From NCBI GenBank assembly GCA_029907475.1, contig JARYLU010000024.1:1-43929 (forward strand): DNA of 43,929 nt, read 5' to 3'. Source of the DNA: Bacillota bacterium (lineage in GTDB: Bacteria; Bacillota; DSM-12270; Thermacetogeniales; Thermacetogeniaceae). This document shows positions 2,688 through 24,412 of the stretch, piece by piece (the first letter of the stretch is position 1; each line of letters opens with the position of its first letter). Under the pieces are notes generated by a model. That model was not told the origin of the DNA, did no database searches, and saw only the letters and a list, made by a program, of their open reading frames with translations. The translations under genes and the position numbers were made by a program.

Positions 2688-4519
2688 TCACTCCGGAAAG
2701 GACAGGGAACCGGCGAAAAGGGAGTTAAAATTGGGGTATGCGGAAAGTTCTACATATTCTACCGATTCGGAAACCAACGCCGCCCGTTGATATTCGTCAA
2801 GTGAGAGGAGCGCCGCCTTAGCTCCTGTTCCGGCTGCGTTGCCTACCCCTTTCACTTTTTCTGCCAGCGCCGGGGGAAGGAGGCCGATCGCGCAGGCGCT
2901 CCGCGGGTTGAGGTAGTTCCCGAAGGCGCCAGCCAGGAGGACCTCTGTGATCTCAGCCGTTTCGATCCCCTGCTTCTCCATCAGCACCTGAATTCCGGTG
3001 GCAATGGCGCCCTTTGCTAACTGGAGTTCCCGGATGTCGCGCTGGGTAATGAGAATCGGCCCGCCGTGGGCTGTTTGGGATTCGTCGACAAGCAAAAAGG
3101 CGTTGGCGCCGTCGTGCTGAACGATGTTATTTTTGAATTTTTCGGCTTTTGGTGAAGCAATTTCGTGGGGGGAGAGGATTTTTCCTCTTTGGTCGACAAT
3201 GCCGCACTCGAGGAGTCCTGCAACGACATCGATCAGGCCGGATCCGCAAATTCCTTCAGGCTTTCCTCCTCCGATTACCGAGAGTTCCAGATCCTCTCCG
3301 AATCGCACGTGGTCAATTGCTCCCTTTGCCCCCCTCATACCGCAGGAGATCTGAGCACCCTCAAAGGCGGGGCCCGCTGCGGCGGAGCAGGCGAGCAGTC
3401 TTTCCTGGCTGCCGAGGACGATTTCCCCGTTCGTTCCGATGTCGACTGCGAGCTTGATCTCCCTGCTCCGGTCGAGGTCTGTTGCAAGGATGACGGCAAC
3501 GGTGTCCGCGCCTACAAATCCTGCAATGTTGGGAAGCATGTAAATTCGTCCCCCGTCGTTGATTTCAATTCCCAGTTCTTTCGCGCTGAACACCAACGGC
3601 CCTTTCGTCACCGGCACGTACGGACAGAGCGCGAGATAGGTCGGATCAACCCCCAAAAGAAGGTGGTGCATACACGTATTCCCTGCAACAGTTAAGGCAT
3701 ATACGTCTTCCCGCGCCGCGCCGGCCTTTTCTACAGCTTCACCAATGAGTTCGTTCAGTGCCGTTACGATCGACCTGTGAAGTTTTTCGAGGCCGGTTTT
3801 TTCCTGGCTCGCAAAGGTGATGCGCGAGATGACGTCGGCACCGTATGATGTTTGGGGATTGAGCGTTGAGGCCACACTTAATTCCTTGCCGGTCCGGAGA
3901 TCCATGAGATAACCCACGACCGTTGTAGTGCCGACATCGAAGGCCATCCCCAGCAGTCTGTCCTTTGTATCGAATTTTTCGAGGCCGAGGACTTTTTCTC
4001 CCTCCAGCACCAGGGTTTGCGGTATTTGGTTTCGCGGGCGATCTGGGGCAGTTTGCGGAGCAGGGGAAGGGGTACGGAGAGTTCACCTAGCCCCGCACCT
4101 GCCTTTAAACGCTCCCAGTCTGGGCGCTGGTCGTTAAGGGAGGGAAGGTCTGCCTCCGTGTAGACTTTGCGAATCCGGGGTTGCAGTTTTACATCCTTTT
4201 CAGGGGCGATCTGGAGGATCTTTGCTTCCGGCCTTTTTTCGAAGGGAAGCAGGACGATCAGGTCTCCGTGGATCCGGGTCATGCAGGCGAGGCGGATTCC
4301 CCTTTCGATCTCCCTTTCCTCCAGGTGCTCCCTTTCAACGGGAGTGAGTAAACCCGCCCCCTCTAAAACCTGCACACGGCACTTGCCGCACTTCCCTCTC
4401 CCCCCGCAGGGGAAGTCGAAGTATAACCCCCCGTTTTCGACGGCCTCCTTGATCGTGGTCCCCTCAGGCACACTTATTTCCAGGTTAGCCGGTTGAAAGG
4501 TAACCTTAAAGTTTTTCAC
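2688..4519 (-). pseudogene. RACo-like corrinoid-activation ATPase (2Fe-2S + ASKHA/DUF4445), frameshifted
   Basis: This is an ATP-dependent reductive activator of corrinoid proteins. The GTG at 4519 follows AGGAGG. The first part is a plant-type [2Fe-2S] ferredoxin with Cys spacing C-x5-C-x2-C (PCGGRGKCGKC) and a later Cys (LACM). The second part is the ASKHA ATPase domain, with AFDVGTTTVVGYLMD (phosphate loop), GTNGEIVLG and GICGSGLIDVV. The two parts are in different frames: the frame must change at 4013-4018 (minus strand AAACCC), and one extra base there would restore a normal protein of about 610 aa. The downstream frame has no SD of its own. There is no canonical slippery heptamer, so a one-base deletion (or a sequence error) is more likely than programmed frameshifting. 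It is the last gene of the methyltransferase operon. Confidence 0.85.
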
Positions 4520-4564
4520 AAAAGACCTCCTCAGCAAATAAGGCCAGTCATGATATTTTTTCGT

Positions 4565-5359
4565 TTATTCTTCTAAAAATCCTGCACGGTAAGCCTTCAG
4601 GTATCCCTGGCACATAAAGTCCTTGTTTAACAACAGGTTGGTGGTGACAACCGCGGTCATGAGTTTTCGATCCAGCGGATCCAGAATTGCGGCATCCATG
4701 CCCAAACTCATGCAAATCGCCAAAAAGTACCGGTTGATCAACCTCCTTTTAGGCAGGGAATGGGAGACGTTGCTGAGGCCGGAAATCGTGCGTGCTTTCA
4801 AGCGCTGCTTGATTTCTGCAAGGCTTTCGAAAAATGTAAGTGCGTTTCTATTGTTCACGGCGAGCGGCAGGACTAAAGGATCAAAGTAAACGTCTTCCAG
4901 GTTCAGGTTCGTCTTTTCGGCAATTTCCAGGAAGCGTTCGGCCAGCGCGACTCTATCGGCAGACGAATCGGGGATCCCTTTTTCATCCATCGTCAGGGCA
5001 ACTACAGAACAGCCGTATTCGAGGACCAGGGGGAGAATCCCTTCCAACCGCGGTTTTTCCAGCGAGATCGAGTTGACCATTGCCTTTCCTCTGTGAGCCT
5101 GGAGCGCTCTCTTAATTGCCTCCGGGTTTGTGCTGTCGATGCACAAAGGCACGTCAACCGCGTCCTACACGGTGCGCACCAGCCACTCCATGTCGGCGGG
5201 CTCGTTTTCGACGCCCATTGCTGTGTTTACGTCAAGCATTTCGGCACCTGCTGCAACCTGTTGCCGGGCCAGTTCCTGAATAAACACCTTGTCTTTAGTC
5301 TTAATGGCCTCGCGTACCCGCGGAATTGTACTGTTCAGTTTTTCTCCGATAATCAGCAA
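4565..5359 (-). pseudogene. methyltetrahydrofolate:corrinoid methyltransferase (AcsE/MtgA-like) with in-frame amber codon
   Basis: This TIM-barrel pterin-binding methyltransferase moves a methyl group between a corrinoid protein and tetrahydrofolate. The TTG start at 5359 lies 9 bases after GGAGG. The protein opens MLIIGEKLNSTIPRV and contains DVNTA, CIDSTNP, MVNSIS, ALTMDEKG, YFDPLVLP and GLSNVSHSLP, all typical of AcsE. The length of 264 codons matches AcsE (about 262). Codon 65 is TAG (5165-5167), inside MEWLVRTV-stop-DAVDVPLCID. Known AcsE proteins have Gln here, so a single C-to-T change (CAG to TAG) explains it. The frame is otherwise continuous. It is probably a nonsense mutation; amber read-through or pyrrolysine insertion is the less likely alternative. 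Confidence 0.87.
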
Positions 5360-5389
5360 CGACCATCAACCTCCAGGTATTAAAGTTAA

Positions 5390-6086
5390 TTAACTTCCGG
5401 TTTTAATATTGGGTAAAAACATTTCTTTAGTAATTTCCTCACCCGGCTCCAGGATAAGATAATTCTCGTCCCAGGGCCCGTGGAAAAGTTTCTCCAACAT
5501 AAACAGAGAGCCGGGGATAATTTCGAACCTTAATTCGAATGTCTCTGCAACCTTTTTGGCGTAAGCTATGTAAGGACTCAATTCGTAAGTACCGGTGTCG
5601 ATCAGGGCAATTCTCGTATAATTTTTCATAATTTCACGTGCCACCCACTGGGCGGTCTGTTCATCATATTTTCTTGTCCATTGATGCTGGCGTGTAAAAA
5701 ATAGATAAAGGGTCCTCCCCGTGTTCTATCCAACCTTTGGTTAAGTAATAGGTTCCCGGGTCCTTAGTTAACTCCTTTTTATACGCCTCGGTGGAGCCCA
5801 GAAAGATGGCGATACAGTCATCAGTCCTGGGCATCACGATTTTGCTTTTTTCCGATTTTAAACCGACCACGCCCTCGGAACATAAACCGTATCCGAGCAG
5901 GATTAAATCCCGCTTCCCTTCGCGGTCCAGCGCGCCTAAGATATCCCGGAGTTTTTTATTTAGCTCTTTAGGAAAAAGATGAAGGCCGAACTCAATTACC
6001 TTGACTTCCACGTGAGGAGGCACCTTATCTTCGATTTCCGGAGCCAGGGTCTCACAAATAACCAGTACGGCATTCTTTTGTTCCAT
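5390..6086 (-). pseudogene. DUF1638 protein of corrinoid methyltransferase operons, frameshifted
   Basis: The start ATG at 6086 follows GGGGGT. The first 130 residues (through GTYYLTKGWIEHGEDPLSIF) are typical DUF1638, with the conserved L-G-Y-G-L-C-S-E-G segment and P-R-T-D-D-C-I-A-I-F-L-G-S. The rest (AREIMKNYTRIALIDTG, then PGSLFMLEKLFHGPWD) lies in another frame. The shift falls in the A-run at 5696-5701 (six T on the coding strand); five T would join the frames and give I-F-T-R-Q-H-Q-W-T, as expected. The joined protein would be about 232 aa, a normal DUF1638 length. The function is unknown; the family co-occurs with methyltransferase and corrinoid genes. Confidence 0.8.
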
Positions 6087-6151
6087 TTTTTACCCCCGGA
6101 AACTTTTTGAGGGGCCGGCTGCAGCCGGCCCCAAAAAAACTTTTTTATCGA

Positions 6152-6304
6152 CTAGTAACTTATCAAAAATAAGACGAACGAGAGAACAAAATCCTCCATT
6201 ATGTTCCATTTTTGGGTCATGACAGAGTTGATGAATTTTCCTTCTGTTTCTGTTTTAACTGGTTGGTAATACACTGAACTAATAGTCGTAATTTTGTTAT
6301 CCAT
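6152..6304 (-). CDS. small protein (50 aa) inside the methyltransferase operon, hypothetical
   Basis: The ATG at 6304 is preceded at good distance by GGAGGG, as good as the SDs of its neighbours. The protein starts MDNKITTISSVYYQP and ends in a short hydrophobic stretch (FVLSFVLFLISY) without a charged tail, so it could be a tail-anchored or membrane-surface peptide. It lies between the UroD-type methyltransferase and the DUF1638 gene on the same strand, with 35- and 65-base gaps, so it is probably co-transcribed. I recognise no family. A truncated remnant of a larger gene is possible. Confidence 0.5.
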   Translation of the reverse strand: MDNKITTISSVYYQPVKTETEGKFINSVMTQKWNIMEDFVLSFVLFLISY

Positions 6305-6339
6305 CTGGGTGTTTCCCTCCTTTTTTAACAGATACACTT

Positions 6340-7517
6340 TTAATAGGTACCGTATTTCACCGTCGCTTCACACCAGTACCTCATTAACCGCGGATCTACG
6401 TTTTCTCCAAAAATCTTATCTGCCGACATGATGGATCCGCCACCCTCCCCTGCTTCGTCTATCAATTTTTTAGTTGTATCTTCTAACTGTTCTTTTGTTC
6501 CATAGATGAGGAGTTTGTAAGGCAGGTTACCCATTAAGCAAACGGTATTTCCGATCAGCTTCTTCGCTTCCTTCATGTTGATTGTTTCGAACTCTGCGAT
6601 CACTTTTCCCTTCGGAAGTTCCTGTAAGTAAGCCAGGTGAGGCGTCCAGTCCGCTTCACAGTAGATGATTACTCCGTAACCCAGATCAACCAGCGCCTGT
6701 ACCAGCTTTTTGAATGTTGGCCAGTAAAATTCCTTGAAGTCGTTGGGCGAGATAAAGGGAGCGAAGTGTAAGGGTATGAAAATTGGCGGGAAAAGCGCCG
6801 GCTGAGAGCCTATCGTTGCCCATTTTATCATGTAAGGAAGGAGTGCTTCACAGGCGCGGGTGATGGTTTCTTTAGGTAACTGCCTGAAATCGAGTGCAAG
6901 TTCTTTAAAACCACGCAGGTGGTCCATCAGGAAGTCGATCGGGGTTTCTGTAAAACCGCCTGCAAGCACCGGCATTCCGTACTTCTCTTTCCATTCCGCG
7001 GTTTTTCCTGCCCAAAAAGAAAGCCAGCTCAGGAACTCCTGAAAAGCCTTTCCGAAAGCGATGGCGGAGGCAGGGTAAGGTTTGGCTATTTCCTGGCAGC
7101 GACGGGGCACGATTTTTTCAAGGAGGAATTTATACGGATCGGAAATCAGCTCGTCGTATTCATCCGCCGACATGCAGGATACCTGTTTCCACTGGTGCAT
7201 CTTTTGGGCCGCGCCGTCTTTCCCGGCGAGCGCAAACTGGTTAATCCCCGCAAATTCGAACATGGCCCCGACCACACGCAAAATGGTGCGTAAGCTGCAT
7301 CCCACTCGGGAAAGTCTTCAAAGGCTTTCTCCCAGGAAGTTGCCATGAGAGAGTAATCGTAGGTAACGTCCGCAATCGAATAGCCGGCGTAGGCAGAAAC
7401 CCAGTAACCTTCTTCCGGAGGAATCAAAGGAACCCGATCGGGTTCTTCTAACCGCATTGCCTTCAGGATCCTGTTTACCCGCTCTTGATATAATTTCGCG
7501 GCCTCATTTTGGTTCAT
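6340..7517 (-). pseudogene. uroporphyrinogen-decarboxylase-type corrinoid methyltransferase (MtaA/MtbA-like), frameshifted
   Basis: Members of this URO-D fold family transfer methyl groups between a corrinoid protein and a substrate or cofactor. The ATG at 7517 follows a GGGGGG-rich SD and lies one base after the corrinoid gene stop. The first 78 codons (MNQNEAAKLYQERVNRILKA, later EEPDRVPLIPP) are in one frame; the remaining 310 (from LRVVGAMFEFAGINQFALAG) are in another. The shift lies in the A-run 7280-7283 (TTTT on the coding strand): five T would read A-P-F-L-R-V-V-G and rejoin a protein of about 392 aa. The C-terminal half keeps the barrel motifs (YGVIIYCEADW, GNTVCLMGNLP). The substrate cannot be assigned. 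Confidence 0.85.
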
Positions 7518-7518
7518 A

Positions 7519-8160
7519 TTAGGCCCCCCTTTCAACCCGGGCATTGAGAAGTTCCTTACAAATGTTGACACCCTCGGCGGCACTCCGGGTGGCGGCATCG
7601 GCACCTGCCCATTCTTTGAGTTCACGTGAGACCGGTGCGCCCCCAATGATGATTTTAACTTCCCCTCGAACTCCTGCTTCTTTAATTTTATCAATGGTTT
7701 CCTTGATGGAATCGAACGCCGATGTCAGGAGGCAGCTTAAGCCCACAATATCCGGTTTTTCTTCTTTGATGGCGCTGATCAGAACCCCGGGTTCAACATC
7801 TACGCCGAGGTCTCTGACCTCAAAGCCGTTTGCTTCAGCGAACCCCTTGAAAACGTTTTTTCCTATGTCGTGGATATCGTTTTTAACTGTGGCCAAAACA
7901 ATTTTTCCTACCTGTGTGGTTTTTGCTTCGGCAAGTACAGGACGTAATACCTCGATAATGGAATTAAAAATCTCTCCTGCCATGATCAGTTCGGGGAGGT
8001 AATACTCGCCCTGGCTGAATTTTTCACCTACAATTTCCATGCCCTGCCGGCAGTCTTCGATGATATTTTCAACGGGAACGCCCTTTTCCAGTTTACTTTT
8101 GACCAGTTCCAGGGTTTGCTTTTGATCTAATTGGACCACCGATTTTGCGAGTTCATCCAT
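7519..8160 (-). CDS. corrinoid (cobalamin-binding) methyl-carrier protein, MtgC/MtbC type
   Basis: A 213-residue two-domain protein. Residues about 10-90 form the helical cap domain (methionine-synthase B12-binding type 1). Residues about 90-205 form the B12-binding Rossmann domain, with the base-off/His-on motif NDIHDIGKN (DxHxxG), then G-L-S-C-L-L-T-S-A-F and IIIGGAPVS. The full length is intact, with AAGGAGG before the ATG at 8160. It is the first gene of the minus-strand operon and would shuttle a methyl group from the UroD-type methyltransferase to the methyl-THF methyltransferase, with the RACo-like protein reactivating Co(II). It is the only major gene of the operon without a lesion. 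Confidence 0.93.
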   Translation of the reverse strand: MDELAKSVVQLDQKQTLELVKSKLEKGVPVENIIEDCRQGMEIVGEKFSQGEYYLPELIMAGEIFNSIIEVLRPVLAEAKTTQVGKIVLATVKNDIHDIGKNVFKGFAEANGFEVRDLGVDVEPGVLISAIKEEKPDIVGLSCLLTSAFDSIKETIDKIKEAGVRGEVKIIIGGAPVSRELKEWAGADAATRSAAEGVNICKELLNARVERGA

Positions 8161-13640: not shown

Positions 13641-13772
13641 CTTAAACCTAACGTGAAAGATTGCACGAAGTTTACCCGGAAGGTAGCAGATGGGAGGGAT
13701 GTTTTGAAGAAGAATTTGTAAGGATCGTATCTTAATTTTTAAACAACTTTATCAAGAAAGGTGGGTTTGATT

Positions 13773-14486
13773 GTGAAAGTTGTTTCCGTGGAGGAAGCTG
13801 TGGCTCAACTTAAGGATGGAATGACCATAATGATCGGTGGCTTTCTTGATGTTGGAATACCTTTAAAAATTGTCGAGAAACTATGCGAGACAGATGTCAA
13901 GGATTTAACCTTGATTAATACATGCGGCTCCATGGTTGGAGGCGGTTTTGGTACGGCGTACCTTTTCGCCCAGGGTAAAATTAAGAAATACATCACAAGC
14001 CACGTAGGTGTTGCTCCCGAACACTTAAATGCTTATAAAGAAGGGAAGCTCGAAGTCGAATTCTACCCCATGGGATCGTGGATCGAGAAAATTCGCGCCG
14101 GGGGAAGCGGTTTAGGCGGCGTCCTGACACCTGTGGGAGTTGAAACGCTCGTAGAAGAAGGGAAGCAGAAGGTAACCATTGATGGCAAGGAATATCTCAT
14201 CGAATTGCCGTTAAGAGCGGATATCGCTTTTATTAAAGGGTACCAGGCAGACCGGTTTGGAAATGTAAGATGCCGTTATCTCCAAAGGAATAACAATCCC
14301 ATCATGGCCTTTGCCGCAGATTATGTTGTCTGTGAGGTCAATGAATTTGTGGATGAACTTGATCCCGATCTGGTTCACATCGTCGCCCCGCTGATCGACG
14401 CACATGTAAAAGGTTACACCTTTGAAGAAGAACAGCAGATATACCGCGACCTGTGGAAGGAAAGAAAGAGGCTCAAGGCTGGTTAA
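13773..14486 (+). CDS. class I CoA-transferase subunit A (ScoA/AtoD-like)
   Basis: The GTG at 13773 (MKVVSVEEAVAQLKDGMTIM) has AGGTGGG 7 bases upstream and fits better than the GTG at 13761; this gives 237 residues. It has the family marks GGFLDVGIPLKIVEKL, GSGLGGVLTPVGVETLVEEG and PLRADIAFIKG, then LQRNNNPIMAFAADYVV. With subunit B it moves CoA from an acyl-CoA donor to an organic acid. It is the first gene after the sigma-54 promoter. The substrate (acetoacetate, succinate, butyrate or another acid) cannot be read from the sequence. Confidence 0.92.
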   Translation: MKVVSVEEAVAQLKDGMTIMIGGFLDVGIPLKIVEKLCETDVKDLTLINTCGSMVGGGFGTAYLFAQGKIKKYITSHVGVAPEHLNAYKEGKLEVEFYPMGSWIEKIRAGGSGLGGVLTPVGVETLVEEGKQKVTIDGKEYLIELPLRADIAFIKGYQADRFGNVRCRYLQRNNNPIMAFAADYVVCEVNEFVDELDPDLVHIVAPLIDAHVKGYTFEEEQQIYRDLWKERKRLKAG

Positions 14487-14552: not shown

Positions 14553-15218
14553 ATGGATGAACGCGAAATAATTTGCCGGCGCGCTGCAAAGGAATTGCGC
14601 GATGGAATGATTGTAAACCTGGGCTTTGGGATGCCCCTCGGTGTTGCCGATTTTATCCCGGAGGGCGTTCACGTCTGGCTGGAGACCGAAAACGGGGGCA
14701 TGGGGTACGGCGGGACCCCTACGTACGAAGAGGCCGACTGCGGTATGGCCAATGCCGGAGCCGGACCGATCACGAAATTGCCCGGAATGTCCGTTTTTGA
14801 CCTTTCGTATTCTTTCCAGTTAATTCGGGGCGGCCACGTAGATGCTACTATTCTCGGATGCCTGGAGGTCGACGAGGAGGGGAACGCCGCCAACTGGGCT
14901 CTGCCGATTTACCCCGGTGCCAACAAGTATCAACCCGGAATGGGCGGTGGAATGGATTTGATGTTCAGGGCGAAAAAAGTCATTATTGCCATGAGCCATA
15001 CCGCAAAGGGTGCTCCCAAGCTCGTCAAGAAGTGCCAATATCCAATCACTGCTCCTAAGTGCGCTCATATGGTGATTACGGAAAAGGCGGTTTTTGAATT
15101 AACCGAAAACGGTTACGTTCTAAAAGAAATCTGGCCCGGGCTCACGGTGGAGGATATTCGCAAGATTACCGAAGCTAACTTTACTGTAGCCGAAGATCTC
15201 AAAGAATATCAAATTTAA
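14553..15218 (+). CDS. class I CoA-transferase subunit B (ScoB/AtoA-like)
   Basis: 221 residues from an ATG preceded by AAGGAGG. The motif W-L-E-T-E-N-G-G-M-G-Y-G holds the Glu at residue 46, in the position of the SENG catalytic glutamate that carries the CoA thioester; Ser is replaced by Thr here. It also has GGHVDATILGCLEVDEEGN and PGMGGGMDLMFRAKKVIIAM, typical of the AtoA/ScoB side. It is the partner of the preceding gene, with a 66-base gap. It is complete and presumably active. Confidence 0.93.
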   Translation: MDEREIICRRAAKELRDGMIVNLGFGMPLGVADFIPEGVHVWLETENGGMGYGGTPTYEEADCGMANAGAGPITKLPGMSVFDLSYSFQLIRGGHVDATILGCLEVDEEGNAANWALPIYPGANKYQPGMGGGMDLMFRAKKVIIAMSHTAKGAPKLVKKCQYPITAPKCAHMVITEKAVFELTENGYVLKEIWPGLTVEDIRKITEANFTVAEDLKEYQI

Positions 15219-15310: not shown

Positions 15311-15898
15311 GTGCAAAAGGAACGCAGCGAAGATTTGATTGCAGATTTCTACGCAAAACTCGAGGGAACCGGGCTTGTTCAAGGTCTGGAAAAATGTATG
15401 GCTTGCGGGAAATGCGTCGGCAACTGCCCGGCGGCCGCCCTTGCCGAAACCTATAATTCCCGAAAGATTATTCGCGACGTGCTTTTTGGGAACGCAGCCC
15501 GCCTGCTTACCAGTGAAGAGATCTGGCAGTGCCTCTGGTGCAAAACGTGTTATGTTTCTTGCCCCCATGATGTTGATTATATATTGCTTGTATTGTCTCT
15601 GCGCTTTCTTGCCCTGGCGAGCGGTTATGGGCAGAAGTATGCTTTACTCTTCAAGCGGTTTGGGGAGAGATTGTATACATACGGTTTAAGTTTTGTGCCA
15701 GGTGAGAAAAGGAGGGAGCAGATCAGGGAAGCAAGGGAAAAACTTGAATTGCCTCCCCTTGTTATTGAAGAAGGTGCTCTCAAGCAACTGCAGCAGATTT
15801 TTGACGAGACCGGGGCAACGGACTTCATCGCAAAACTGGGGACCAGAGAAGAAAAACCGCTGCAGCTCACCTACAGGAGAGGAAGATCACCTTCATGA
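15311..15898 (+). CDS. HdrC-like 4Fe-4S protein (first copy)
   Basis: 195 residues; GTG start after AAGGAG. Two [4Fe-4S] motifs are visible: C29-x2-C32-x2-C35-x3-C39-P and C74-x2-C77-x2-C80-x3-C84-P, as in heterodisulfide reductase subunit C. The remainder is helical, with one hydrophobic stretch (ILLVLSLRFLALASGY) that is too short and mixed for a sure membrane anchor. It should pass electrons between HdrA flavin and the HdrB-type subunit that overlaps its stop by 4 bases. The neighbours suggest a role in acyl-CoA oxidation, not methanogenic CoM-S-S-CoB reduction. Confidence 0.9.
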   Translation: MQKERSEDLIADFYAKLEGTGLVQGLEKCMACGKCVGNCPAAALAETYNSRKIIRDVLFGNAARLLTSEEIWQCLWCKTCYVSCPHDVDYILLVLSLRFLALASGYGQKYALLFKRFGERLYTYGLSFVPGEKRREQIREAREKLELPPLVIEEGALKQLQQIFDETGATDFIAKLGTREEKPLQLTYRRGRSPS

Positions 15899-16827
15899 TT
15901 AAAGATAGCAGGGTCAGGCTTGATGTTGTAGAGAAGATCCCGGTTCCCGAAAGAGTTTTTTTCTTTCGCAGTTGCACCGGAAGTATGGAGTACCCCGGAC
16001 TTGAGAAGTCAATCAGGGAAATCACAAAGATCCTTGGTATTAAGCTGGTAGAGTCGTGGGAACAGACATGTTGTTCCGGTTATCTCATGACGTGCCAGAC
16101 TTTTGAACCGATCACTTCTCTGGCGGTTACTGCGAGAAATTTAAGCATTGCAGAAAGAGAAGGGCTTGATGTTTATACCAACTGCAACGGCTGTTTCGGC
16201 TGGATGACAGAGTTTAAGCATTTCCTCGACCATAACGGGGAAATGCGGGAAAAGGTAGATAAAGTGCTTGCGAAGATCGGGTGCACCTACCAGGGGACGG
16301 CACAAATTCGCCATTTTCAAGAGCTGTGGTACCGTCTGCGCGATCGGATCAAGGAAAAACAAGTCCGCTCGCTGGATGGGTTGCCGGTTGGTATTCATTA
16401 CGGCTGCCATTACCTGGCAAAGAAATACGACCTTATCGACGATCCCGAGTACCCCACATTTCAGGAAGACATTGTGGAAATGCTAGGCGGAAAACCTGTT
16501 TTTTACCGGGCGCGGAGAGAGTGCTGCGGAGCCGCGGTAGGTACAATGTTCACACATATGGATGATATCGCCCTTCCCCATGCTTACAACAAGCTCAAGA
16601 ATGCAAAAGAAGAGGGTGTGGAACTTCTCCTGACTGTGTGTCCGGGGTGTAATGTCCAACTGGACCGGTCGCAGATTGCTATGAAAGAGCGGGGTATGGG
16701 CGAGATCGGAATACCTGTTATTGATTTATCTCAGTTAATTGCGTGGACCTTGGGCGTTCCCGGGGAGCTGCTCGGCTTTCATATGAATTCAATTCCCGTC
16801 GTGATTCGGAAAGAAGGGAGAAAATAG
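15895..16827 (+). CDS. HdrB-like protein with two CCG domains (first copy)
   Basis: 310 residues; the ATG overlaps the HdrC stop (ATGA). It has two cysteine-rich CCG domains: FFRSCTGS, TCCSGYL and NCNGC in the first (about 25-110), and HYGCHY, ECCGA and VCPGC in the second (about 165-255). These are the Cx31-39CCx35-36CxxC motifs that ligate noncubane [4Fe-4S] clusters in HdrB. In methanogens HdrB reduces a disulfide; here the electron acceptor or donor is unknown. Compared with the second copy it has about 20 extra residues and diverges strongly, so the pair is not a recent duplication. Confidence 0.9.
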   Translation: MIKDSRVRLDVVEKIPVPERVFFFRSCTGSMEYPGLEKSIREITKILGIKLVESWEQTCCSGYLMTCQTFEPITSLAVTARNLSIAEREGLDVYTNCNGCFGWMTEFKHFLDHNGEMREKVDKVLAKIGCTYQGTAQIRHFQELWYRLRDRIKEKQVRSLDGLPVGIHYGCHYLAKKYDLIDDPEYPTFQEDIVEMLGGKPVFYRARRECCGAAVGTMFTHMDDIALPHAYNKLKNAKEEGVELLLTVCPGCNVQLDRSQIAMKERGMGEIGIPVIDLSQLIAWTLGVPGELLGFHMNSIPVVIRKEGRK

Positions 16828-16828
16828 G

Positions 16829-17893
16829 GTGGAGGATAGGAGAAAGGTTCTGATTATCGGAGGCGGGCCCGCAGGAATGGAAGCAGCGTACTGTTTGGCT
16901 TGTTTTGGCTATCAGGTACTTCTTGTTGAAAGGGAAAAGTACCTGGGGGGGCGCCTTCTTCACCTCGACCGCCTGTATACCAGCATGGAAGAAGCTGCAG
17001 TTTTGCTTGAGGCCCTCAAGGCAAGGGTTAACGCTTCTCCGTTAATCGAAACATGCCTGGAAACCATTCCTGAAAACATCCAGAAAGTGAATGATGTTTT
17101 TGAGGTGACCCTTTCTCGGGAAAGTAAGAGCTGCGTCGAAAAGGTTGGTGCCGTTATTTTAGCGACCGGTGCTGCCTATTTTGATACGGAAAAATGTGCC
17201 GAGTATGGTTATGGTCGTTATGATGGGGTTTTGAACAGTTTAGATTTTGAGAAGCTGCTTCAAAGCGCCCGGGCCGGGAGAGGCCCCTTTTCTGCAGCGG
17301 GTAAGTTGCCTCAAAGAGTCGCATTTTTCCAGTGCGTGGGTTCCCGGAAGAGAGCAGGCGCGGGTAGCCAGGGCTGGCCGTACTGCTCAAAGATATGCTG
17401 CATGTACACCGCGAAGCAGGCAAGGCAGTTGAGGGAATTGCTCCCTGACAGCGAATGCTACGTTTTCTATATGGATGTCCGAGCGGCAGGCAGGGAGTAC
17501 GAAGAGTTTTTGCGGGAAACGATGGAAAAAAACCGCGTCCGGTACGTCCGGGGTCGGCCGGCGAAGGTCTTCCCGAATGAGGGCGGTTTGCTGATCCGCG
17601 CTGAAGATACCTTGATTGGGTGTCCCATTGAGCTGGAGGTTGATCTGGTTGTGCTCGCGGCGGCGCTTGAGCCTTCTTCTGAAACTGTGGAACTTGCAAG
17701 AATGCTCCAGTTGCCTACTGATGCGTATGGGTTTCTCAGGTCTTGCTCCGGGACAGAACTGTTAAAGGCAGGAGAAGGCGTCTTCTTTGCAGGGGCCTGT
17801 GAGTTTCCAAAAGGTATAGAAGAAAGCCGCATTCAGGGACAGGCCGCAGCAAGAAGCGCAGCAAGCTATTTAAACGCGCGGGGGAGTGTCTGA
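16829..17893 (+). CDS. minimal HdrA-like FAD oxidoreductase
   Basis: 354 residues; GTG start after AAGGGAG. The FAD-binding motif is VLIIGGGPAGMEAAYCLACF. The HdrA-specific cysteine block is FFQCVGSR and, about 13 residues later, PYCSKICCMYTAKQA. The C-terminus has the second FAD motif (EGVFFAGACEFPKGIEESRI). It is much shorter than methanogen HdrA (about 650) because it has no ferredoxin domains; electrons must therefore pass through the two HdrC proteins on either side. It may be the flavin hub of an HdrCB-A-CB assembly. Whether it bifurcates electrons cannot be decided from sequence. Confidence 0.9.
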   Translation: MEDRRKVLIIGGGPAGMEAAYCLACFGYQVLLVEREKYLGGRLLHLDRLYTSMEEAAVLLEALKARVNASPLIETCLETIPENIQKVNDVFEVTLSRESKSCVEKVGAVILATGAAYFDTEKCAEYGYGRYDGVLNSLDFEKLLQSARAGRGPFSAAGKLPQRVAFFQCVGSRKRAGAGSQGWPYCSKICCMYTAKQARQLRELLPDSECYVFYMDVRAAGREYEEFLRETMEKNRVRYVRGRPAKVFPNEGGLLIRAEDTLIGCPIELEVDLVVLAAALEPSSETVELARMLQLPTDAYGFLRSCSGTELLKAGEGVFFAGACEFPKGIEESRIQGQAAARSAASYLNARGSV

Positions 17894-17894
17894 G

Positions 17895-18470
17895 ATGCGG
17901 ATTTTCTTAAGCAACCGGACAGGCAGCATTCAGCGCGAGTTTCAGCATGAAATTGAAGAAAAAAGCAAGCAAAATCTTGATAGGTGCCTTGGCTGTGGAG
18001 CTTGTACAGGTGGCTGTCCCAACGTTGATTTTTTTGATTACAGTCCCAGGGAAATTATTGCAATGATCAAGCTTGGTGACAAAAAGAAGGTACTGGAAAG
18101 CGAAACGATCTGGTACTGTCTCGGTTGTTATCTTTGCGAAGAACGCTGCCCTGGGAGAATCAGTATTCCCCGTGTAATGGATAGCTGCCGGGAGATGTCT
18201 CTGGTTGAAGGTTACGAAGCTGCGAGAGAAAATATTGTTCTCTTTCACAAGCTATTTCTTACCCAGGTTGCCAGGTACGGCAGATCTCCGGAAACCCTTC
18301 TGGCGCTTCTGTTTAATTTCAAAACAAAGGATTACTTGCGTGATGCCGATCTGGGCCGGAGGATGTTTTTAAAGGGAAAAATGAAGTTATTTCCAGAGCG
18401 GGTTCGCAACCGCGAGGAGATCAGGTCTCTTTTTAAAGAGGCAGACTTCAGGGGGGTTTTACTTAAATGA
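17895..18470 (+). CDS. HdrC-like 4Fe-4S protein (second copy)
   Basis: 191 residues from the ATG at 17895, which has GGGGGAG 8 bases upstream; a GTG at 17886 overlapping the HdrA stop is the alternative. The two [4Fe-4S] motifs are CLGCGACTGGCP (about residues 31-42) and CLGCYLCEERCP (about 75-86). The rest is helical and basic. It is only distantly similar to the first HdrC. It overlaps the next hdrB-like gene by 4 bases, so it forms a second HdrC-HdrB pair. Confidence 0.9.
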   Translation: MRIFLSNRTGSIQREFQHEIEEKSKQNLDRCLGCGACTGGCPNVDFFDYSPREIIAMIKLGDKKKVLESETIWYCLGCYLCEERCPGRISIPRVMDSCREMSLVEGYEAARENIVLFHKLFLTQVARYGRSPETLLALLFNFKTKDYLRDADLGRRMFLKGKMKLFPERVRNREEIRSLFKEADFRGVLLK

Positions 18471-19339
18471 AGCTGGCTTATTATCCCGGGTGTTCTCTAC
18501 ATTCAACCGCGCAAGAGTATGATATCAGTTTAAAGCTTTGCCTGCAAAGCCTGGGTATCGAATTATCAGAAGTGCCTGATTGGAATTGCTGCGGGGCAAC
18601 GTCCGCCCACGCGCTCAATGAGAAGCTGGGTACCCTGCTGGCTGTACGTAATTTAAGTCTTGTTAAAAATATGTCACTTAACAAGATTTTTGCCCCCTGC
18701 GCTGCCTGTTACAACCGGTTAGTCACAACTCAGTACCGCTTGCAACATGAGCCTGCGCCTGATTCTGAAGATGCCTCCCTGACGAATTCAGGCGAACTCC
18801 AGGAAATCAAGGTTTTAAGCATCCTTGACCTCCTGTGCGATGAGGAGGTACAGGAGTTAATTAAAGCCCGCTTCAAGAAGTCGCTGAACGGCATTCGGGT
18901 TGCGTGCTATTACGGCTGTTTTTTGGTACGACCGACAGTTGCTATTGGTCGTTGCTCTTCTGAAAATCCAATGTACTTAGAAGACATTCTCGCTGCAGCA
19001 GGTGCGGAGGCTGTCTCCTGGGCTTATAAAACTGAATGTTGCGGTGCCGGTTTTGTCCTGCCGGAACCCCAAGTCGTCCTCAACCTGTCACGCGAAATCT
19101 TAAGAGATGCGAGGCGTTCGGGCGCAGATGTGATCGCGGTAGCATGTCCTTTGTGCCAGATGAACCTCGATACGCGTCAGGATGCAATTCGGAGGGAGTG
19201 GGACGAAGATCTTGAGATGCCGATCCTCTATTTTACGCAGCTGCTGGGGATAGCAATGGGTTTCTCCCCCCGCGCTTTAGGTCTAAAACGTCTCATGGTG
19301 AGCCCCTTTCCTGTTTTAATGCAGAGAGGAATCTCTTGA
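18467..19339 (+). CDS. HdrB-like protein with two CCG domains (second copy)
   Basis: 290 residues. The N-terminus MKLAYYPGCSLHSTAQEYD is classical HdrB. The first CCG domain has PGC, NCCGATSAH and CAACYNRL; the second has CYYGCFL, ECCGAGF and ACPLCQMNLD. All cysteines needed for two noncubane clusters are present. It is closer to canonical HdrB than the first copy. It is the last gene before a 200-base gap that holds a hairpin. Confidence 0.92.
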   Translation: MKLAYYPGCSLHSTAQEYDISLKLCLQSLGIELSEVPDWNCCGATSAHALNEKLGTLLAVRNLSLVKNMSLNKIFAPCAACYNRLVTTQYRLQHEPAPDSEDASLTNSGELQEIKVLSILDLLCDEEVQELIKARFKKSLNGIRVACYYGCFLVRPTVAIGRCSSENPMYLEDILAAAGAEAVSWAYKTECCGAGFVLPEPQVVLNLSREILRDARRSGADVIAVACPLCQMNLDTRQDAIRREWDEDLEMPILYFTQLLGIAMGFSPRALGLKRLMVSPFPVLMQRGIS

Positions 19340-19543: not shown

Positions 19544-20866
19544 GTGGCAGTTCATGAGCCTAAAACGGAAAAAAGGGTTTTTGACAATGTCCTTGTTCAA
19601 AAAGTGCTATCTTACCGCTATTTTATCTTTGTACTAATCGCAATCCCTTATTTTCTCGTCTACTTCCACAGAACCTCTACAGCTGTCGTTGCGAAGGCGC
19701 TTGTTGATGCGTTCAATGTAACACCTGCTGCGCTGGGACTTTTAGGGTCGATGTACTTTTATCCCTACGCAGCGGGACAGTTGCCGGCCGGTATCCTGGC
19801 GGACAACTGGGGCCCCAAAAAGACGGTTTCTCTGTTCCTCTTAATTGCGGCCATCGGTGCGATTGTTTTTGGTGCCGCGCCGAGTTTTGCAGTCACGGTT
19901 GTCGGTAGATTCCTTGTAGGTTTGGGTGTGGGTTTTGTTTATGTACCGGCCATGAGACTCCTTGCAGACTGGTTCCGAAGGCAGGAGTTTGCAACCATGT
20001 CTGGAATCATGCTTGCCATCGGAAACCTTGGCTCGTTATCTTCAGCCGGTCCCCTGGCCTTGATGATGGTTGCAATCGGTTGGCGCAACTCTTTTCACGT
20101 AATCGGAGCTGTAACCTTCTTGGCGGTGATCCTGTTCTTTCTCTTTATGGTGAACAAACCACAGGACAAGGGCTGGCCCAGCATTCAGGAAATCGAAGGA
20201 ACCGTTCCTGCGGCAGGTCAGAGTGTGAAGAAGTACGGGGTTGGCGAAAGCCTGAAGATGATCTTCTCGAACTGGGAGTTCAACAAGATCGGGATACTCT
20301 TGTTCTTCTTTTACGGCGGGATGATGGGATTCCAAGGGCTTTGGGCAGGTCCCTGGCTTCGGCACGTGTACGGAATGGAACCTACGCAGGCCGCAAATTA
20401 CCTTATGCTGATGGCGGTTGGCCTGGTCTTTGGGTGTCCTCTGTCTGGGATACTATCGGACAAGGTGCTTAAATCCAGGAAAAAGGTTCTTTTGTACGGG
20501 GGTTTCCTGTATACACTCTCGTATATCCCAATTGTTTTGAAAATTGACAGTTTAAGCCCGGTTATGATTGCTGTTTTGTTCTTCTACTGGGGCCTCACAG
20601 CCGGGAGTTTTGTTGTCTGTTTCGCCAATTCCAAAGAATGCTTCCCAGTGGAGCTGGCAGGTACGTCAACCGGGTCGGTCAACCTGTATATCTTCGTCGG
20701 CGGCGCAATCCACCAGCAGGTGATGGGCCTCATTATTCAGCGCTACCCTGCGATAGATGGGGTGTATCCGGCCGCGGCTTATCAGACGGCATTCGGGTTT
20801 TTGATTGCAGGGATGGCCCTTGCACTCCTCCTCTATTCAACATTTAAAGAGAAGCCACAATTTTAG
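19544..20866 (+). CDS. major facilitator superfamily transporter
   Basis: 440 residues; GTG start after GGAGGAATTT. There are twelve predicted membrane segments, beginning YFIFVLIAIPYFLVYFHRTS. The MFS motif between TM2 and TM3 reads GILADNWGPKKT, and LVGLGVGFVYVPAMRLLADW marks TM4. It resembles organophosphate/anion-type MFS carriers (sugar phosphate permease, hexuronate and related). Placed between Hdr genes and a CoA-transferase, it most likely imports the carboxylic acid that is then activated; this is inference. The substrate is unknown. Confidence 0.9.
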   Translation: MAVHEPKTEKRVFDNVLVQKVLSYRYFIFVLIAIPYFLVYFHRTSTAVVAKALVDAFNVTPAALGLLGSMYFYPYAAGQLPAGILADNWGPKKTVSLFLLIAAIGAIVFGAAPSFAVTVVGRFLVGLGVGFVYVPAMRLLADWFRRQEFATMSGIMLAIGNLGSLSSAGPLALMMVAIGWRNSFHVIGAVTFLAVILFFLFMVNKPQDKGWPSIQEIEGTVPAAGQSVKKYGVGESLKMIFSNWEFNKIGILLFFFYGGMMGFQGLWAGPWLRHVYGMEPTQAANYLMLMAVGLVFGCPLSGILSDKVLKSRKKVLLYGGFLYTLSYIPIVLKIDSLSPVMIAVLFFYWGLTAGSFVVCFANSKECFPVELAGTSTGSVNLYIFVGGAIHQQVMGLIIQRYPAIDGVYPAAAYQTAFGFLIAGMALALLLYSTFKEKPQF

Positions 20867-20906: not shown

Positions 20907-21695
20907 ATGTCTAAATTGGTCTCCTTGGAACAAGCAGCTAAACTCATCGGCAACGATCAAATCGTGGCTGTTGGTGGAAATGCCCTCCACCGAAATCCGG
21001 TTGCTCTTTGCCGGGCCGTTGCGAAGAACAAGCCGGTAGGCCTAACGGTGGTTGGCGCCGCCCCCGGTTTGGCTGCTGACATCCTGTGTGCTGCTGATTG
21101 TGTAAAGGAAATTTGGTTCGGTTTCTTCGGTTTCGAAAATGAGTTTGGTCTAGCCGCCGGGATGCGGAAAGGGGTCCAGAGCGGCAAGATTAAAGCGATG
21201 GAGGGCTCCTGAACGGCAATTATCGCCGCTCTCCGTGGGGGAGCATATGGTGTTCCGTTCATGCCGGTCGGCGGAATGTGGGGAAGCGACCTTCTGAAGA
21301 TTCGTCCCGAAATGTATCATGTAATGAAGAGTCCGTTCGACGGTAAAGAGGTGGTTTGTGTACCATCGATCCAGCCTGATTGGGCTTTAATCCACGTCCA
21401 TGAAGCTGATGAGATGGGCAATGCCCGTATTTTCGGGTGCACCTTCCAGGATGTCTTGATGAGTCGCGCTGCTAAAAGAACGATCATAACAGCCGAAAAA
21501 ATCGTTTCAACCGGTACTTTCCGTGAAAAACCTGAATTGACTTTAATTCCGCATATTTTTGTAGAAGCTGTAGTAGAAGCTCCGAAGGGTGCTGCCCCCG
21601 GTCCATGCTGGCCTGACTACCCGGCGCCAGACCGCGATGGGATGAAGGCTTACCTGGCTGCTGTAAAAGCTGATACTGTAAACGAGTGGCTCTAA
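20907..21695 (+). CDS. class I CoA-transferase subunit A (GctA/IpdA-like) with in-frame TGA at codon 102
   Basis: A 262-codon frame starting at an ATG after AAGGAGG. Codons 1-101 and 103-262 are both good family sequence in one frame: VGGNALHRNPVALCRAVAKN and GFENEFGLAAGMRKGVQSGK before, then TAIIAALRGGAYGVPFMPVG and DWALIHVHEADEMGNARIFG after. Codon 102 (21210-21212) is TGA, in M-E-G-S-stop-T-A-I-I, where a Cys would fit. The second half has no SD or start of its own near 21213. It is either a recent nonsense change or a selenocysteine codon: a 7-bp hairpin with a GTG loop starts 15 bases after the TGA. Its partner is the next gene. Confidence 0.8.
21228..21244 (+). promoter_or_regulatory. 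hairpin after in-frame TGA, SECIS-like candidate
   Basis: GCTCTCC and GGGGAGC pair over 7 bp (one T-G) around a 3-base GTG loop. The loop starts 22 bases after the TGA at 21210-21212, within the 16-37 base window described for bacterial SECIS elements, and G is among the first two loop bases. The bulged U of E. coli elements is not evident. It could be chance, since this is coding sequence. Confidence 0.35.
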
Positions 21696-21737: not shown

Positions 21738-22460
21738 ATGGAATACGGCCCAGCTGAAATGTTGGTTGTAGCCCTGGCGCGGGAGGTCCAGAACGGGAAA
21801 ACATACTTTACGGGATTAGCGTCTCCCGTCCCGGTAACTGCCATGAAGCTGGCGCGTGCCCTGCACGCACCAGAGTCTATTTGGATTACCATTGCGGGGG
21901 GGATCGATCCCCAACCCGATCCGGCAGCAACACCGTCCACCCTGGATCAGGAGAGACTTCTCAAAGGGGTAGTAAGCTATTTCACGCTTGAAGAGGTTTT
22001 TGACCTTGCGTGCAGTGGAAGAATTGACCATGCTTTCTTGAGCTTTATCCAGATGAGCAAAAAGGGCGAAATCAACATGTCTTACGTCGGAGGAGAATAC
22101 GATAAACCGAAGGTCCGGCTGCCCGGGGGCGCGGGAAGCGCGACCCTGACGCCGACAGTAAAGCAGGTTTTAATCTGGCGTACCGCACACGATGCACGTT
22201 CCCTTGTTGAGGAGGTAGAGTTCTGCACGACGAAGGGCAATATATACAAGGTGTTCACTCCGTTATCCACTTTTATTATGAAAGATGGAGAGCTGCAATT
22301 AGAAAGCATCCACCCGTATACCACCCTGGACGAGGTTAAGAAGAACACCGGCTGGGAAATTACGCAAACAGATGTACCTGTAACTTCGCCTCCAACTGAA
22401 GATGAGCTGGCAGCATTACAAAAAGTAGATCCAAATAAGATATACCTGGCAGAATTTTAA
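21738..22460 (+). CDS. class I CoA-transferase subunit B (GctB/IpdB-like)
   Basis: 240 residues from the ATG at 21738, which has AAGGAGG at good distance. It begins MEYGPAEMLVVALAREVQNG and shows the IpdB/GctB pattern F-T-G-L-A-S-P-V-P-V-T-A-M-K-L-A, FLSFIQMSKKGEINMSYVGG, RLPGGAGSATLTP and FCTTKGNIYKVFTPLSTFIM. In this subfamily the classic catalytic Glu is often absent, and some members (IpdAB) open rings of CoA esters as hydrolases and do not transfer CoA; I cannot place this pair on either side. It is the last gene before the terminator. Confidence 0.9.
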   Translation: MEYGPAEMLVVALAREVQNGKTYFTGLASPVPVTAMKLARALHAPESIWITIAGGIDPQPDPAATPSTLDQERLLKGVVSYFTLEEVFDLACSGRIDHAFLSFIQMSKKGEINMSYVGGEYDKPKVRLPGGAGSATLTPTVKQVLIWRTAHDARSLVEEVEFCTTKGNIYKVFTPLSTFIMKDGELQLESIHPYTTLDEVKKNTGWEITQTDVPVTSPPTEDELAALQKVDPNKIYLAEF

Positions 22461-22585: not shown

Positions 22586-22636
22586 TAGTGGAACATCTCT
22601 TAGAACGTGAGTTTTGTGGGGAGAGGGGGGGAAAAC

Positions 22637-24412
22637 TTGAAGTGCGAGATTGACCTTACGAACCTGAAAGCAAACGAGATTATGCAAACTGAATTTTTAA
22701 CAACACTTGAAAATACACGAATAGCTGATATTTTCAACGATCTGGTTAACAGCGACAAGGAAGAATTGATTGTCCTGGATGGGGAGAAGCAACCGTGCGG
22801 CATTGTCACGAGAAAGGTGGTGCTGCGAAAACTTAAAAAAGGCGTAGACCCCGAGAGCCCTGTATGCGGGATTATGCAGCAGCCGTTAATCACCGTACAG
22901 AGCGATGACAGCGTTTACTTTGTGCGCGAGGTTATGCGCAAGCACCAAATCGGACGGGTCCCGGTTGTTAATAAGGCAGGCAAAGTAGTCGGTCTTGTCA
23001 CCGCAGTTGCGATTTGCAACGGTTTTTCTGATAAGCTTGAGGAAGTAGGCAGCCACCTTCAGGCGATAATCGATTCCATTGGTGTCGCGACCCTTGTTTT
23101 TAACAGGTTTTGCCGCCTTGTTTACTGGAATCAAATGGCCAAGCTGATTTATAAAGATAAAATCAAGCTACACGTCCGCTGTGAAGAACTTTTTGAATCG
23201 AAAGTGCTCAAGGAAATTCTTGAGACAGGAAAAACCATAAAAAATATTTACGAAGTGAACCAAGACAGGCATTTAGTAAAAAATGCAAGCCCTATCATTA
23301 AACAGGGAAAGGCCATTGGAGTTGTTTGTACCATAGAAGATGTAACGAAGGTTGTTAACTTAATGCATAAGGCAGAGGTAATCAACGAAAAAGAGGAACT
23401 GATTGAAAGGCCTGGATCGGGAAAGGGCAGCTTGCGAACCTGCCCTAAGCCTCCCTGCTTTGAGGCTTTTGAGAGCAGGAACCCAAATGCCAATAAATTA
23501 GTTAAACTGGCAAAAAAGGTAGCCAAAGTTGACGTAACTGTTTTAATTAGAGGTGAAACCGGAACCGGTAAAGAGCTTATGGCGCGTTCATTACACCTGG
23601 CAAGCTCCCGCAAAAATAACCCCTTTGTCATTGTGGACTGCAGTGCGGTGCCGGAAAAGCTTTTTGAGACCGAGCTGTTTGGTTACGAGGCCGGTGCTTT
23701 TACTGGGGCCTCTAAAAAGGGCAAAAAAGGCAAATTGGAATTAGCGGATAAAGGAACCCTATTCCTTGATGAGATCGGGGAGCTTCCTCTTGAGATGCAG
23801 TGCAAGCTTTTACGCGTTATTCAGGAAAAAGAGTTTTACAGGGTTGGGGGATTAAAGCCAATTAAAGTAGATGTCCGCTTCCTTGCTGCAACCAACAGAG
23901 ATCTCGAAGAAATGGTAAAAGAGGGGACTTTTCGTGAAGATTTATTTTACCGCCTAAATGTGATTACCTTGGAGCTACCAAGTTTGAGGGAAAGATCTGA
24001 AGATTTGGCGGATCTTATTTTCGAATTTTTTAATCATTTTAGTGATATCTACAAAATACCGATTAGTATTATTGAAAAAGGCGTTATTTCATCTCTGGCA
24101 AATTACGATTGGCCTGGAAATTACCGGGAGCTAAGGAATGTTACCGAAAGGCTTGTACTCCTTTCGGAAAATGGTTGTATTAAAATGGAACATGTTCCAG
24201 ATGTGATAAAAAATCTGACTCGCGGAGAAAAAAGTGAAAGAAAGAATAAAAGTGTTTATTGTTTAGAGGAATATATTGAGCAAAAAGAAAGGGAAGAAAT
24301 TATTAAGGCCTTAGAAAGGCATGCAAACAACAAAGCTCAAGCAGCGCGTGCTCTGAAAATTCCTCGCAGCACTTTGTATTACAAGATGAAGGCATTAAAT
24401 ATTAATATATAG
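22637..24412 (+). CDS. sigma-54-dependent transcriptional activator with CBS pair and PAS domain
   Basis: 591 residues from the TTG at 22637, which sits 5 bases after GGGGGGG; a GTG at 22607 is possible. Residues about 20-130 are a CBS pair ([33 protein letters not shown]). Residues about 135-240 are PAS-like ([20 protein letters not shown]). The AAA+ domain has Walker A GETGTGKE (about 306), GAFTGA sigma-54 contact loop (about 352) and Walker [12 protein letters not shown]. The C-terminal Fis-type HTH is [20 protein letters not shown]. It would activate sigma-54 promoters such as those at 13.6, 24.7 and 26.0 kb; the ligand of the CBS/PAS sensor is unknown, adenine nucleotides or a CoA ester being reasonable guesses. 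Confidence 0.95.

Follow-up and report, generated by a model that had tools for sequence, protein, structure and literature searches.

The window, meaning the whole stretch of 43,929 nucleotides that was analysed, holds a pair of adjoining genes for a two-subunit enzyme of the CoA-transferase fold, the first of them carrying an in-frame TGA. The features which bear on its reading are as follows, in genomic order.

13761-14486 and 14553-15218, + strand: separate CoA-transferase pair of the AtoDA/ScoAB kind, the B subunit of which keeps the ENG Glu motif
15311..19339, + strand: block of five Hdr-like genes ordered C-B-A-C-B, conserved neighbours in the main Sec subclade
15311-15898, 15895-16827, 16829-17893, 17886-18470 and 18467-19339, + strand: the same Hdr-like genes singly, being C, B, A, C and B
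19544..20866, + strand: MFS transporter, conserved neighbour
20907..21695, + strand: subunit A of a CoA-transferase-fold enzyme, predicted selenoprotein of 262 residues (from the frame, PF01144 and TGA-bearing homologs)
21210..21212, + strand: TGA at codon 102, predicted to be read as selenocysteine (from the homolog column; aligned to IpdA Glu105)
21228..21244, + strand: SECIS-like hairpin of 7 bp with a GTG loop (from sequence, covariation and homologs)
21738..22460, + strand: subunit B, 240 residues, intact, with Ile (in TIAGG) where class I CoA-transferases have their catalytic Glu
22607..24412, + strand: CBS/sigma-54 transcriptional activator, conserved neighbour, best NCBIfam match PrdR (below cut-off)

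The in-frame TGA of subunit A

The subunit A frame runs from an ATG at 20907, with AAGGAGG 7 bases 5' of it, to a TAA at 21693-21695 and contains one internal TGA. PF01144 is found as a single domain of the read-through product, at residues 7-225 and so spanning the TGA, and the open frame and this one domain bear out the initial annotation in its view that family sequence continues uninterrupted in one frame on both sides of codon 102. That subunit B is intact is also correct, while a further statement, that the downstream half of subunit A is devoid of start signals, does not hold, there being an in-frame ATG at 21261 with a GGAG 17 bases before it, albeit at poor spacing. Other in-frame TGAs of the window overlap another gene, lie in a frame-broken region at 2.5-7.5 kb or have short flanks, and, once a frame antisense to this gene is set aside, the codon 102 TGA is the sole one in the window outside of these classes, with long flanks on both sides.

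Some 29 other loci, the most divergent at 38% identity, share a TGA at the codon 102 column, a count that approximates the number of independent genes as a few assemblies sit in two collections. These loci were found in a search of one genome per species together with named contigs, with whole-genome sampling from the Bacillota; they span at least seven families and include Pelotomaculum and Syntrophomonadaceae assemblies, and hosts of the Sec gene are anaerobic bacteria, mostly syntrophic. At the approximately 29 other loci the stop at this column is always TGA and never TAA or TAG, with both flanks conserved, and the close homologs without a TGA (L003, L043, L044 and L046) have Cys there in 4 of 4 cases, in keeping with the earlier suggestion that the residue would fit a Cys. 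The homolog alignment that had been proposed as a check finds Sec or Cys at the column throughout the clade. Mapped onto the tree, the Sec label requires three changes, at least two of them forced by branches that are well supported.

The presence of the TGA in many independent assemblies rules out a sequencing error, and its conservation likewise rules out a pseudogene. Put more broadly, the TGA might stem from an error or from nonsense mutation of a gene in decay, or might be a genuine stop that parts two separately translated halves, for which one could point to the frame-broken genes elsewhere in the window and to the ATG at 21261. However, the many loci that share the TGA column with conserved flanks, the Cys in the remainder and the Sec machinery of the genome leave that idea with a negligible likelihood.

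Within the window's gene, 15 bases intervene between the TGA and the start of a hairpin, GCTCTCC-GTG-GGGGAGC, the loop of which starts with G, and so the 7-bp GTG-loop hairpin described by the initial annotation is confirmed at 21228-21244. The hairpin lies 13-15 nt 3' of the TGA in all Sec genes examined. A stem of at least 6 bp exists in all 16 non-redundant Sec genes, as against 13-35% of synonymous-codon randomised versions, and the hairpin is seen again in 14 of 14 additional loci. Across the 16 non-redundant genes the stem columns 19-24/30-35 are paired in 96.9% of cells, and slid stem controls are only 28-67% paired. Two freely variable stem pairs covary (UA to CG, and CG to GC, GU and UG), with a covariation score reached by none of 500 shuffles, which leave relatedness in. 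The Arg codon 110, CGT and located in the loop, is invariant and the most conserved among 48 fourfold sites. In the distant members L045 and L095-L097 the hairpin keeps its location, with a stem of 8 bp that differs greatly in sequence, and a Cys homolog that falls within the Sec clade is without the hairpin; another Cys gene, L044, meets the loose hairpin test through a different stem. A minimum-free-energy test using synonymous codon shuffling over 42 nt is weak (mean z -0.6 for Sec genes and +0.8 for Cys genes), and for this reason reliance is placed upon hairpin presence, covariation and synonymous-site conservation.

The machinery for selenocysteine insertion, a search for which had been advised, is complete: selA, selB and tRNA-Sec (selC) lie together in a stretch of about 4 kb of contig C10, in the same genome as the window, and selD is also present. 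The selD gene (L055, G000:C10:22821-23747) has its own in-frame TGA, as in known Sec-containing SelD. Across the other Sec and Cys genomes tested selA is present in 14 of 14. Decoding of the TGA as some other amino acid, through an altered code or a suppressor tRNA, would also be compatible with the frame, which is open under any such code, but TGA serves as a stop elsewhere in the window and an altered genetic code is rejected on that ground. With the full Sec machinery, the SECIS-like hairpin and the nested Cys homolog that is without one also speaking against it, decoding as another amino acid has a vanishingly small probability.

Overall the TGA/Cys column, the hairpin and the Sec machinery together give strong support to the prediction that the codon 102 TGA is read as selenocysteine, and they uphold the proposal of a possible new selenoprotein, which is absent from the lists checked. 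Known bacterial selenoproteins (119 families) share with the Sec enzyme the UGA, a downstream SECIS-like hairpin, Cys homologs and SelA/B/C/D; most of them are regarded as redox enzymes, in many cases of thioredoxin-like fold. A CoA-transferase-fold family appears neither among the 119 prokaryotic selenoprotein families tabulated in 2026 (PMC13188914) nor among the new families of deep-Sep (PMC12013277), the Sec family has no NCBIfam model of its own, and no paper on a Sec CoA-transferase was found in a search of sources other than subscription journals, preprints and GenBank annotation. Selenoproteins as a kind are already known, and it is Sec at this position of the CoA-transferase superfamily that is new. 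Automatic annotation would split such genes in two or label them pseudogenes, and reconstructions of syntrophic metabolism have for that reason probably overlooked the enzyme. Among the hosts there appears to be one cultured type strain, making the claim directly testable.

Loss of the subunit B glutamate and a proposed role for Sec102

Class I CoA-transferases use a Glu that forms a covalent intermediate, at first an anhydride and then a glutamyl-CoA thioester, and the carboxylate is needed. At this catalytic Glu position the B subunits of all Sec and Cys members have Ile or Leu (TIAG, NITG, TLSD), while among the more distant homologs that the same search gave, the Glu is retained in the B subunits of 10 of 10. 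Loss of Glu in B therefore goes together with Sec or Cys in A, or with Glu in A in the case of L012. This last homolog (1501-2328 of G046:C61) has Glu at the Sec column and a subunit B without Glu, selA was not found in its genome G046, and by sequence the pair is arranged much as in IpdAB and offers a natural counterpart, with Glu, to the Sec enzyme. The initial annotation had called the protein a CoA-transferase subunit, which stands as regards the fold and PF01144 and fails as the name of an enzyme, since a subunit B without the catalytic Glu fits it poorly; the name is probably wrong for the Sec enzyme.

Alignment with solved structures, by single sequence and by profile, places Sec102 at Glu105 of IpdA, which we take to be the residue studied as part of the IpdAB active site. 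In IpdA 6co6 the residue aligned to Sec102 is Glu, in 6coj it is Ala, and because the title of the crystal structure PDB 6coj names the IpdAB E105A COCHEA-CoA complex the aligned IpdA residue is Glu105. An AlphaFold model, made with both subunits as one read-through chain (mean pLDDT 84.6, pTM 0.56), has a helix at 102-114 with Sec102 as its first residue. Such a helix start favours an ionised nucleophile. The best match of the A half of the model is IpdA (Z 32.2, 272 residues, 2.5 A) and that of the B half AibB (Z 26.1); whole-model Foldseek matches have an rmsd of 17 with the subunit placement wrong or uncertain, and so only the per-subunit matches are used.

Three known systems are instructive for what the Sec enzyme may do. 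IpdAB, a C-C hydrolase acting on COCHEA-CoA in the steroid catabolism of Rhodococcus and Mycobacterium, is like it a heterodimer of the CoA-transferase fold with a B subunit without the catalytic Glu, and has a catalytic-site residue at the same subunit A position, Glu105 there as against Sec or Cys in the Sec family; identity is about 25%, and aerobic steroid degraders contrast with anaerobic syntrophs. It is reported not to be a CoA-transferase and has Gly57 in IpdB (PMC5380842). AibA/AibB, the 3-methylglutaconyl-CoA decarboxylase of Myxococcus xanthus, includes in AibB the best solved match of subunit B, and its CoA-transferase Glu is replaced as it is in the Sec enzyme, although AibB has Cys56 where the window's subunit B has Ile (Ile or Leu in other members) and AibA has Gly at the column holding Sec. 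AibAB is a decarboxylase and not a transferase, and AibB Cys56 is not strictly needed for activity (PMC7756340). GctAB, a class I glutaconate CoA-transferase with the same fold and subunit order, is closest to subunit A by sequence score, yet its catalytic GctB Glu54 is absent from the Sec enzyme's B and GctA has Gln at the Sec column. On the tree IpdA and AibA sit on long branches with weak support.

A fairly probable account, built upon these sequence comparisons, is that of an acyl-CoA enzyme like IpdAB or AibAB, probably no CoA-transferase, with a Sec102 recoded through SelB and the hairpin and acting as a selenolate nucleophile. SelB and the hairpin after the UGA would recode codon 102, the selenol would by homology occupy the position of IpdA Glu105 in the active site, and acyl-CoA would be bound between the subunits as in IpdAB or AibAB. 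The selenolate, as nucleophile (general acid/base action being less likely), would then cleave a C-C or thioester bond, perhaps via an acyl-selenide. Taken by itself, the assignment of Sec102 as the nucleophile is only modestly favoured. More tentative again, though a serious possibility, is the idea that the catalytic residue has moved from a Glu in B to a Sec in A, working through a covalent acyl-selenide (selenoester) in the breakdown of an organic acid by syntrophic anaerobes. If true this would add a catalytic type to the CoA-transferase superfamily, and we know of no selenoenzyme described with an acyl-selenide cycle on CoA thioesters. With Sec at what is probably the catalytic position of an acyl-CoA enzyme, a site occupied by Glu in known relatives and by Cys in close ones, the family provides a natural Glu/Cys/Sec series at one site with which to ask what selenium adds.

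Were the enzyme instead a true CoA-transferase, Sec102 would replace the lost B Glu as covalent acceptor and CoA would be passed to a second acid. The fold, the Pfam family and an A/B pair arrangement as in class I CoA-transferases are all in line with such a role, but no Sec or Cys member has the required carboxylate in B, a Glu-type CoA-transferase pair already adjoins in several loci, and relatives without the B Glu are a hydrolase and a decarboxylase (PMC5380842, PMC7756340), and so a transferase seems very improbable.

Gene neighbourhood and redox alternatives

Upstream of subunit A are the MFS transporter, the Hdr-like genes and the Glu-type CoA-transferase, and downstream is the sigma-54 activator; much of this set recurs around the main-subclade Sec loci, including that of Pelotomaculum sp. 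Some loci have a thiolase-like gene near (confirmed for L004) and some have nearby genes that cluster with an acyl-CoA dehydrogenase-like protein. Such gene contents suggest a catabolic operon for an organic acid with uptake, CoA activation, a Sec-enzyme step and electron transfer, in which, for the main subclade, the MFS protein would serve for uptake, the Glu-type CoA-transferase for CoA activation and the Hdr-like proteins for electron transfer.

The same neighbours can be read in favour of a redox or C-S/C-Se role for Sec102, whereby attack of the selenol on carbon or sulfur of the substrate would give a selenenyl-sulfide. The C-B-A-C-B Hdr-like genes adjoin the main-subclade Sec members, the adjoining regulator resembles PrdR of proline reductase, and a redox function is assumed for the majority of bacterial selenoproteins (PMC13188914). 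However, subunit A has no CxxU/UxxC partner in its sequence, a thioredoxin-like CxxU motif being among the candidates looked for and rejected, and IpdA and L012 have at this position a Glu, a residue without redox activity. Nor are there Hdr-like genes near the Cys loci or the Sec locus L045. A redox chemistry for Sec102 seems unlikely on this evidence, and similarly doubtful is a movement of its electrons by the neighbouring Hdr-like proteins, loosely as in glycine reductase; the IpdAB-like acyl-CoA enzyme with a catalytic selenolate is preferred.

Sulfur oxidisers have an hdrC1B1A-hyp-hdrC2B2 cluster with a lipoate-binding protein (PMC6067878). The C-B-A-C-B order of the window recalls it, but hyp is absent here and no lipoate-binding protein was recognised among the genes looked at. 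The HdrA-like flavoprotein within 15311-19339 is short (354 aa), and its host is an anaerobe related to syntrophs.

Elsewhere in the window, at 2688-8160 on the minus strand, is a cluster of corrinoid-methyltransferase type (RACo, pterin-binding, DUF1638, URO-D and B12-binding) whose frames are broken or truncated: RACo is spread over two frames, as is DUF1638, and the pterin-binding and URO-D genes match their profiles only partly. Either decay or assembly indels could account for the broken frames. The most distant Cys member, L046, adjoins a corrinoid methyltransferase-like set (L077 4495-10279, G377), as judged from size and first residues only.
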